A DNA stretch of 36,663 nucleotides from Verrucomicrobiota bacterium (GTDB lineage: Bacteria > Verrucomicrobiota > Verrucomicrobiia > Limisphaerales > JACQFS01), in NCBI GenBank assembly GCA_016199935.1, contig JACQFS010000030.1:1-36663 (forward strand), read 5' to 3'. The position numbers and the translations under genes were made by a program. Below are positions 19,502 to 31,775 of the stretch, piece after piece (the first letter of the stretch is position 1; every line of letters starts with the position of its first letter). Under the pieces are notes generated by a model. That model searched no databases, was not told the origin of the DNA, and saw only the letters and a list, made by a program, of their open reading frames with translations.

Positions 19502-19548
19502 CTGCCCCGGACCGCGAGCCGGGACGGCTCGCGGTCCGCCGGGGGCAG
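19502..19548. repeat. Nested intergenic palindrome
   Basis: A perfect 13-bp stem CGGACCGCGAGCC (19508-19520) pairs with GGCTCGCGGTCCG (19526-19538) around a 5-base loop. Outside it CTGCCCC (19502-19508) pairs with the GGGGGCAG end (19541-19548) across a two-base bulge. Bases 19514-19538 are identical to 30962-30986. It lies between the membrane-anchored protein and the giant repeat protein, in a 193-base gap that otherwise shows nothing recognised. Confidence 0.85.
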
Positions 19549-29657: not shown

Positions 29658-30845
29658 TCACTCATACAACAACGCCGTGTGCCGCCGGTGCGCGAAGGCC
29701 GCCTCCTCGGTCGCCCACGCCGCGAGCAAATCGCGCCAGGGCTTTCCACTTTCCAGGTGCGTGCGTTCGCGCGCCGAGCCGAAGAGCAGATCAATCGCAA
29801 TCGGGTCGCGGACAAATTCATAAACCTCCGTGCGCCACGCAAAATTCCGGCCCGACATCTCGCGCATCGCCGCGAGCAGCGCGAGGCTCGTGCGCACCGG
29901 CTGGAACGCGGCGCGGTCCGTGACATGCAGTTGCACGCCGCCGCAATCCTGCCCGGCGTGCTTTTGAAACGTCGGGCGAAACCACGCCGCGCGGAACTTC
30001 ACGCCGGGCAGCTTCTCGTCGTCCATGCGGCGGGCGAGCTTCGCCGCGTCGAGCCACGGTGCGCCGCAGAGTTCGAAGGGGCGCGTGGTGCCGCGGCCTT
30101 CGCTGAGATTCGTGCCTTCGATCAGGCACTGCCCCGGATAGACGAGCGCGGTGTCGGCCGCCGGCATGTTCGGCGACGGCAGCACCCACGGCAGCCCGGT
30201 CTCGTCGAAATGCTGCGCGCGCTTCCAGCCCTCGCAGGGCACCACGTGCAGTTCGCCGCCATCGAGCTTGAGTTCACTCGTGTAAAGCATGGCCAGCTCT
30301 CCCATCGTCAGCCCATGCCGCGTGGCGAGATCGGGCGCGCTGACAAAACTTTCGAACCCCTTGCGCACCGCCGGCCCTTCGACCGCGTCGCCGCCCAGCG
30401 GATTGGGCCGATCCAGCACGAACACGCGCAGGCCGAGCGGCAGCGCGGCTTCGAGGCAGTATTTCATCGTCGCCTGGAAAGTGTAGTAGCGGCTGCCGAT
30501 GTCCTGCAGATCAATGACCAGCGCATCCAGCCCGGCGAGTTGCTCCCGCGTGGGCCGCAGGCTCGCTGCCGTCGCGCCGTAGAGACTGTGAACGGCGACG
30601 GCGGCGGATTGCTTCGAAGCGCCGCCCGCGACTGCAATCAAGTCCTGCGCCTGCCCCAGCACGCCATGCTCCGGTCCGAAGATCGCCGCGAGCTTCACCT
30701 TCGGCGCGGCGGCGAACAGTTCGATGGCCTGACGAAGCTGGCTGTCCACCGCCGCCGGATGCGTGACCAGCCCCACGCGCATCCCGCGCAAGGGCGCGAA
30801 ATCCTGGGCGACCAGCACGTCGAGACCTGTGAGGACTTTGGGCAT
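29658..30845 (-). CDS. namZ: NamZ-type exo-beta-N-acetylmuramidase (DUF1343 family)
   Basis: A 395-residue DUF1343 (GH171) protein. The characterised Bacillus member removes terminal N-acetylmuramic acid from peptidoglycan fragments (family knowledge). Motifs are RVGLVTHPAAVD (23-34), IFGPEHGVLG (56-65), VIDLQDIGSRYYTFQATMKY, VLDRPNPLGGDAVEG, WVLPSPNMPAADTALVYPG and LIEGTNLSEGRGTTRPFE. No signal peptide is seen, unlike Bacillus NamZ, so it should act in the cytoplasm on imported muropeptides unless exported by another route. Its ATG follows the moaE stop by four bases, making it the last gene of the operon. That closeness results from a palindrome that lengthened moaE. It might be a cell-wall recycling enzyme; the gene symbol rests on family membership only. 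Confidence 0.85.
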   Translation of the reverse strand: MPKVLTGLDVLVAQDFAPLRGMRVGLVTHPAAVDSQLRQAIELFAAAPKVKLAAIFGPEHGVLGQAQDLIAVAGGASKQSAAVAVHSLYGATAASLRPTREQLAGLDALVIDLQDIGSRYYTFQATMKYCLEAALPLGLRVFVLDRPNPLGGDAVEGPAVRKGFESFVSAPDLATRHGLTMGELAMLYTSELKLDGGELHVVPCEGWKRAQHFDETGLPWVLPSPNMPAADTALVYPGQCLIEGTNLSEGRGTTRPFELCGAPWLDAAKLARRMDDEKLPGVKFRAAWFRPTFQKHAGQDCGGVQLHVTDRAAFQPVRTSLALLAAMREMSGRNFAWRTEVYEFVRDPIAIDLLFGSARERTHLESGKPWRDLLAAWATEEAAFAHRRHTALLYE

Positions 30846-30849
30846 GGCA

Positions 30850-31371
30850 TCAATCGCGTGTGTCGCCCGGACCCGGACCGCGAGCCGTCCCGGCTCGCAG
30901 CGGCGCCAAAGCGGATGGAGCGCTGGGATTGTCCGTTGCGTTTGCGGAGTGCGTGCGCGCTGCGAGCCGGGACGGCTCGCGGTCCGCCACCGGTCGCTTC
31001 CAGATCGGCACGGTGCGTTTCATTTCATCAATGAGGAACTGGCACGCCGCGAACGCCTCGCCGCGATGCGCCGCCACGACCTCCACCCACAGCGACGCCT
31101 CGCCGACCTTCACCACTCCGAGGCGATGCACGACGCGCACGGATTCGAGCACCCAGCGTTTTTCCAACTGGTCGAAGATGAGCGCGAACTGCCGCTCGAC
31201 CATCTGCTGAAAGGCCTCGTAGTTGATGGCGGAAATTTTCTCATCGCCCTCCGCCTCGCGCACCACGCCGGAGAAATAAACCGCCGCGCCCATGCCGGCG
31301 GACATCGCGCGCTCGTGGAGCAGCGCGGCTTCGTCGAGCGGCGCGGTGGTGAGGATGAGGGAGCGGCGCAT
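30850..31371 (-). CDS. moaE: Molybdopterin synthase catalytic subunit MoaE with a palindrome-derived tail
   Basis: Large subunit of molybdopterin synthase, which with thiocarboxylated MoaD converts cyclic pyranopterin monophosphate to molybdopterin (family knowledge). Family motifs are VYFSGVVRE (31-39), INYEAFQQM, VVHRLGVVKVGE (80-91), VVAAHRGEAFAACQFLIDEMK (98-118) and VPIWKR (121-126). K118 and K125 correspond to the active-site lysines K119 and K126 of E. coli. A normal MoaE would end near R126. Here 47 more residues, PVADREPSRLAARTH...PGDTRD, are encoded by a nested palindromic repeat. ATG 31371 fits the family; a GTG at 31392 overlapping the previous stop (GTGA) is an alternative that adds seven residues. 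It lies downstream of the BamE-like gene and upstream of namZ. Confidence 0.9.
   Translation of the reverse strand: MRRSLILTTAPLDEAALLHERAMSAGMGAAVYFSGVVREAEGDEKISAINYEAFQQMVERQFALIFDQLEKRWVLESVRVVHRLGVVKVGEASLWVEVVAAHRGEAFAACQFLIDEMKRTVPIWKRPVADREPSRLAARTHSANATDNPSAPSALAPLRAGTARGPGPGDTRD
30874..30986. repeat. Large nested palindrome inside the 3' end of moaE
   Basis: Arms 30874-30902 and 30958-30986 are perfect 29-base inverted copies separated by 55 bases. Each arm is itself a hairpin: GCGAGCCG-TCC-CGGCTCGC on the left and its complement on the right. Bases 30962-30986 are identical to 19514-19538. The element is translated as the tail of MoaE and is followed by namZ. Confidence 0.92.
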
Positions 31372-31388
31372 GGTGTGGGAGTGATCGG

Positions 31389-31775
31389 TCACGGCGCGTT
31401 GGTGGGAATCGTCACTTCGGCGACCCGGTTTGACGAATCGAATTTCACCGCCACCTCATCGGCGTCGGGCCCGAACAACCGCAGGCGAAACGGCACCACG
31501 TAGGGGAAATTGGTTTGGGGCTTGAGCCGCGAACCGTAGGCCCAGGTTTCCCGGCTCACGATGAACAGGAAGGCGAGCGGATTTGTAGGCATCTCTTTCG
31601 GTGGAAAAAAAATGTGGTCGGGCTTTCCGAGGAGATTTCTGACCGCCTCTTTGCTGTCGCCGTCCTTCAATGACTTCGCCCGGACGGCAAGCGACCGGGC
31701 GCGGCAGCCGTCGAGCGCGACGGCTAGCATTCCGCAAAGAAGAATCGCGATGAGGATGCCAACGAACCATTTCAT
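31389..31775 (-). CDS. Small membrane-anchored protein with BamE/SmpA-like motif
   Basis: A 128-residue protein. Residues 3-22 (WFVGILIAILLCGMLAVAL) are a hydrophobic signal or anchor; LDGC at 21-24 is only a poor lipobox because the cysteine follows Gly after Asp. The segment KDGDSKEAVRNLLGKPDHIF resembles the BamE/SmpA pattern (dG-x-s-k-x-x-V-x-x-LLGkP). The remainder, with TWAYGSRL and VAVKFDSSNRVAEVTI, is consistent with that small beta fold. Function is unknown. It separates moaD (21 bases upstream) from moaE, and its TGA overlaps a possible GTG start of moaE. An envelope protein inside a cofactor operon is unexpected and may simply be carried along. Confidence 0.7.
   Translation of the reverse strand: MKWFVGILIAILLCGMLAVALDGCRARSLAVRAKSLKDGDSKEAVRNLLGKPDHIFFPPKEMPTNPLAFLFIVSRETWAYGSRLKPQTNFPYVVPFRLRLFGPDADEVAVKFDSSNRVAEVTIPTNAP

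Follow-up and report, generated by a model that had tools for sequence, protein, structure and literature searches.

The REPINs of Pseudomonas fluorescens SBW25 are inverted REP doublets that are scattered extragenically, are tied to specific RAYT genes, and keep a preferred spacing, with peaks at 71 and 110 bp (PMC3116915). REPs tagged with GTAG or CGTC also form head-to-head dimers. They count DNA-repair genes among their targets, favour unidirectional (tandem) and convergent sites, and in the verrucomicrobium Opitutus terrae some of them occur within genes (PMC3733652). In the Rickettsia palindromic elements (RPE), palindromic repeats lie in frame within protein genes (PMC3733652). REP-encoded residues at protein ends have already been published, and a protein tail made of such a repeat is thus by itself of a known sort.

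Here we describe a palindrome at the 3' end of moaE in a 36,663-nucleotide stretch of DNA from a Verrucomicrobiota bacterium, analysed as a whole and called the window below. It is very probably a copy from a family of mobile, REPIN-like REP doublets that are or were moved by a RAYT, and this copy would have entered the final codons of the gene in frame. As in SBW25, the family consists of inverted doublets with a preferred spacing, extragenically scattered and tied to specific RAYT genes. It differs in its sequence, in a gap of about 56 nt in all measured genomes whatever the arm length, in its excess between divergent genes, and in that no cognate RAYT was found in the window's genome. With the GTAG/CGTC REPs it shares head-to-head dimers and a DNA-repair target (here mfd), but neither GTAG nor CGTC, the terminal tags of that superfamily, is present in its arms, whose feet are GGA[C/G]C and AGC, and divergent sites are favoured. 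Its in-frame insertions, in four genes, recall the behaviour described for the RPE; unlike the RPE, the copies here are mostly intergenic and are RAYT-linked in relatives. A subset of copies resembles bacterial MITEs in having terminal inverted repeats and 9-bp duplications, whereas the moaE copy has neither. We found no paper on a GGA[C/G]C...AGC repeat in Pedosphaera-like Verrucomicrobiota. What is new is a REP class that lacks these tags, is linked to RAYTs and keeps a near-fixed gap, together with its excess between divergent genes.

The repeat-derived tail of MoaE

The moaE gene (30850..31392, minus strand) encodes a 180-residue molybdopterin synthase catalytic subunit. Pfam PF02391 (MoaE) matches its product over residues 15-126 (1.9e-32), the domain has its usual PIWK end, and the columns invariant among 28 relatives, such as R45, H109, R110, K125 and K132, are retained. 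The native-like part lies at 30994-31392. As the initial annotation proposed, the frame then continues for 47 codons beyond PIWKR; this tail (30853-30993) ends at a stop codon (30850-30852) 4 nt ahead of the ATG (30845-30843) of namZ (29658..30845, minus strand), an exo-beta-N-acetylmuramidase gene whose product matches NamZ_N (6.6e-70) and NamZ_C (1.5e-55). The 29-nt perfect inverted repeat that had been noticed within the moaE frame is found at exactly 30874-30902 and 30958-30986, and when extended to 39 nt its arms are still 90% complementary. The stem was also rightly called very stable: the RNA of 30864-30996 has a folding energy of -92.4 kcal/mol, compared with -62.5 +/- 3.7 for its shuffles (z -8.2).

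Alignment with genome-wide copies (59 doublets) delimits a 113-nt element at 30874..30986, with the core CGGACC...GGTCCG. Arm 1 (30875..30901, plus strand) is the hairpin GGACC-GCGAGCCG-TCC-CGGCTCGC-AGC, and arm 2 (30959..30985, minus strand) is its inverted form. The 57 nt that separate these two 27-nt arms (30902..30958) vary in sequence among copies and are nearly constant in length, at 54-58 nt in the window's genome. Elsewhere in the window, a second copy at 19508..19538 is surrounded by remnants of a shell beginning with GGGCGCATC and, like the copy at L151:1014-1044, has a single hairpin that retains the two outer feet, which looks like an exact deletion of one arm together with the spacer.

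The initial annotation held that MoaE proteins normally end soon after PIWK and that the tail is translated repeat DNA, and both statements stand. Most of about 85 relatives stop 3-8 residues past PIWK, and the tail is absent from all that could be compared; these relatives belong to the same order, the nearest genomes being no closer than that, and the MoaE end of L070 is unreadable owing to Ns. The next longest readable tails among them have 33 (L115) and 23 (L076) residues and are unrelated in sequence. The repeat of the moaE tail recurs at dozens of other sites in the genome. A codon model trained on that genome places the end of the coding segment at 30997, with -0.27 bits per codon in the tail and +0.45 in the body of moaE. 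Solved MoaE relatives align only up to about residue 133-147 of the product, and an AlphaFold model has a confident, ordered core followed by a tail mostly below pLDDT 50, so that the tail is predicted to be disordered. The odd end of this MoaE is a copy of a dispersed repeat and not a new protein domain.

The gene neighbourhood shows no conserved moaE-namZ arrangement, since namZ lies near moaE in none of 87 relative loci, and the moaE-namZ junction holds no promoter- or terminator-like site. In nearly all relatives moaD adjoins moaE. Between these two genes the window has a 128-aa ORF (31389-31775, minus strand), for which no match was found in the relatives' moaE loci.

A dispersed family of head-to-head hairpins

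The general plan in the window's genome is two head-to-head hairpins, GGA[C/G]C-GCG-stem-loop-stem'-CGC-AGC, with 54-58 nt between them. The 28-nt arm GGACCGCGAGCCGTCCCGGCTCGCAGCG, with at most 3 mismatches, gives 62 + 67 matches in this genome and none in the control, or about 129 arms; the count of 126 + 128 obtained with a 19-nt arm includes most arms twice, once per strand, since the hairpin differs from its own complement at only 3 positions. The stretches fetched from the genome (loci L008-L046 and L144-L171, with the window) hold at least 56 doublets, all head to head and 79-83 nt from start to start. When the doublets are aligned, the arms are near-invariant, with the feet CGGA[C/G]C and AGCGG, and the spacers differ except in one more homogeneous subfamily, which is probably younger. 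A search of Rfam with the hairpin returned only sub-threshold microRNA matches, which we take as chance.

The family is thus a short palindromic REP repeated many times in one genome, in inverted pairs at a preferred spacing, and mainly extragenic. Genes around the doublets were called by a home-made codon model, which places 51 of the 56 doublets in intergenic DNA, three inside genes, one at a contig end, and one in moaE, whose ORF covers it with its 3' end. Between genes (n=52), 27 sites are divergent, 22 tandem and 3 convergent, the moaE doublet being counted among the tandem sites although the moaE ORF covers it. In a 430-kb sample, divergent sites make up 29% of intergenic length and 22% of the gaps of at least 60 nt, and the divergent excess of doublets (27/52) is significant against both (p 6e-4 and p 1.5e-6, respectively). 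The excess may come from a preference during insertion or from retention near promoters.

In three other genes a doublet lies in frame, and the codon use is gene-like before and after it: mfd (L155:917-1027), a Ser/Thr kinase gene (L156:922-1032), and an OPT transporter gene (L171:997-1107). The kinase insert falls between PknB positions 240 and 246, the site of a short loop in PknB. Counted over the 56 doublets, 74% of all frames are open, against 53% for shuffles, and in-frame survival therefore needs little besides a suitable length.

The hairpins are conserved as structures. In 22 arm variants taken from the window's genome and from related genomes, the stem is paired in 98.2% of cells, compared with 77% when shuffled and 27-51% when slid, and four of the eight stem pairs have changes on both sides. 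The variants were hand-picked for diversity, and the figure gauges pairing and not frequency. The two arms of one doublet often differ in stem sequence, which means that pairing has been kept within each arm more than between arms. The family extends throughout the order. The related genomes are those of Verrucomicrobiota, including Pedosphaera, Limisphaerales and Verrucomicrobia subdivision 3. The general arm GCTGCG-N8-24-CGCGSTCC is enriched over a reversed control in many, not all, of them (519 vs 57 in G036, 88 vs 3 in G049). In five other genomes the gap between arms is 54-62 nt, with a mean of 56.8, for arms of 25 to 36 nt, and the spacing of core doublets is kept where the genome belongs to another family. 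That the gap stays near 56 nt while arm length varies suggests recognition of the spacing itself.

The RAYT partner clade

A RAYT-type Y1 protein of 237 aa in a related genome (G089; L173:250-960) is encoded between arms on both flanks. Among 30 related RAYT loci, all nine whose protein is at least 53% identical to this one have 2-7 arms within 1.5 kb, while none of the 21 less similar RAYTs does (Fisher p 7e-8); the background is 4 arms per 441 kb of other loci. The nine arm-flanked RAYTs form one clade (support 98/97), and at several of its loci the element begins 2-5 nt past the end of the RAYT match. The REP is therefore tied, in nine related genomes, to one specific clade of Y1 transposases.

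No RAYT of this clade was found in the window's genome, and current mobility there is accordingly not supported; a cognate RAYT in the same genome is not strictly defining for REPINs. The absence is not certain, the assembly being about 98% complete. Four Y1 genes of the window's genome were considered as movers and set aside, as none is flanked by arms. The closest to the clade is 46% identical and carries GTAG-type REPs instead, which leaves the local mover as lost, missing from the assembly, or different. Two RAYT loci deserve mention. At L051:1000-2004 (G000:C16), a RAYT gene is accompanied by GTAG-type repeats (GTAGCGCAGATTGCCAATCTGC), so that the published REP class is found alongside the untagged one. 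At L049:1345-1964 (G000:C171), another lies between perfect 32-nt inverted repeats holding CACCCCGCTTTAGCGGGGTG hairpins, and hairpins resembling these are seen in L036:800-1018, within a GGGCGCATC shell.

Origin of the moaE copy

When the element is excised in frame, moaE ends in PIWKRPV(x)GDTRD*, a normal MoaE end whose stop is still 4 nt before namZ; for this reason, insertion into the last codons is preferred over loss of a stop. It is the likeliest history. The codons GDTRD ahead of the stop (30853..30867, minus strand) can be read as the original 3' end of moaE lying past the insertion, and the present stop is probably the original one, the element having entered ahead of it. No sequence fixes the exact junction, which is inferred.

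The initial annotation named an overlooked frameshift, with moaE really stopping near 30993, as what would overturn its account. Such an error, or a tail produced by miscalled bases, is highly improbable. The genome is a 260-contig draft, and misassembly can occur at repeats; the spacer and flanks of the moaE copy are unique, however, which makes a collapsed repeat unlikely, and the in-frame pattern recurs in three other genes. The other two frames of the moaE strand are free of stops inside the element, so that a simple frameshift would not end the gene near 30993. It had also been suggested that the stem tunes namZ expression, to which one may add that the tail could be kept for a function. 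The stability of the stem and a moaE stop 4 nt ahead of namZ, which fits translational coupling, speak for such a role, and the over-representation of doublets between divergent genes gives room for regulatory roles in general. We nevertheless consider it unlikely at this locus: the order of the two genes is not conserved, their junction lacks promoter- or terminator-like sites, other copies adjoin unrelated genes, and the tail has codon use that is not gene-like and a predicted disordered fold.

It is also improbable that the copy arrived within a MITE of the DDE type, bounded by GGGCGCATC ends and flanked by 9-bp target-site duplications, and has since lost those ends, the hairpins being mere passengers. 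Eight doublets (L008, L014, L015, L017, L018, L030, L032 and L163) do lie inside a shell of 154-185 nt that starts with GGGCGCATC on both sides. The duplications match at 9/9 positions around L014:925-1080, L015:927-1108, L018:923-1077 and L030:913-1094, and, by reading, around L205:380-539, where the shell encloses a different core. But the moaE copy consists of the core only, and its would-be duplication matches at 7/9 positions, as do most controls; the same shell carries unrelated hairpin cores (L036, L205, L210), and the spacing of the core doublet is unchanged in other families. Terminal inverted repeats with a 9-bp duplication are thus a property of a subset of copies, which means that more than one mover may have acted.

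For the insertion of a REPIN-like doublet, the reading we prefer, the following course can be proposed. A dedicated clade of RAYT (Y1) transposases would move, or would have moved, the doublet family, with hairpins of single-stranded DNA presumably serving as the recognition signal. One copy would have entered the final codons of moaE in frame. As the element is GC-rich and stops are rare in it, the ribosome would read through to the likely original stop, and the outcome would be an unstructured C-terminal tail in which about 40 residues are extra, and which has probably been tolerated and not selected for. A wider scenario is tentative and rather doubtful: an untagged REP class that spans the order and has a RAYT clade of its own may have lost its RAYT in this lineage and been adopted by a MITE shell of the DDE type as well as by the host, for which it would serve as promoter-region elements. 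Copies would then persist because gene regulation is under selection, and not by transposition alone.

The tail of this MoaE is explained as the residue of a mobile element, and the case cautions against taking such tails for domains. For the family, the tight link to one RAYT clade and the many stem variants found in nature make the recognition of feet, stem and spacing by the RAYT directly testable.
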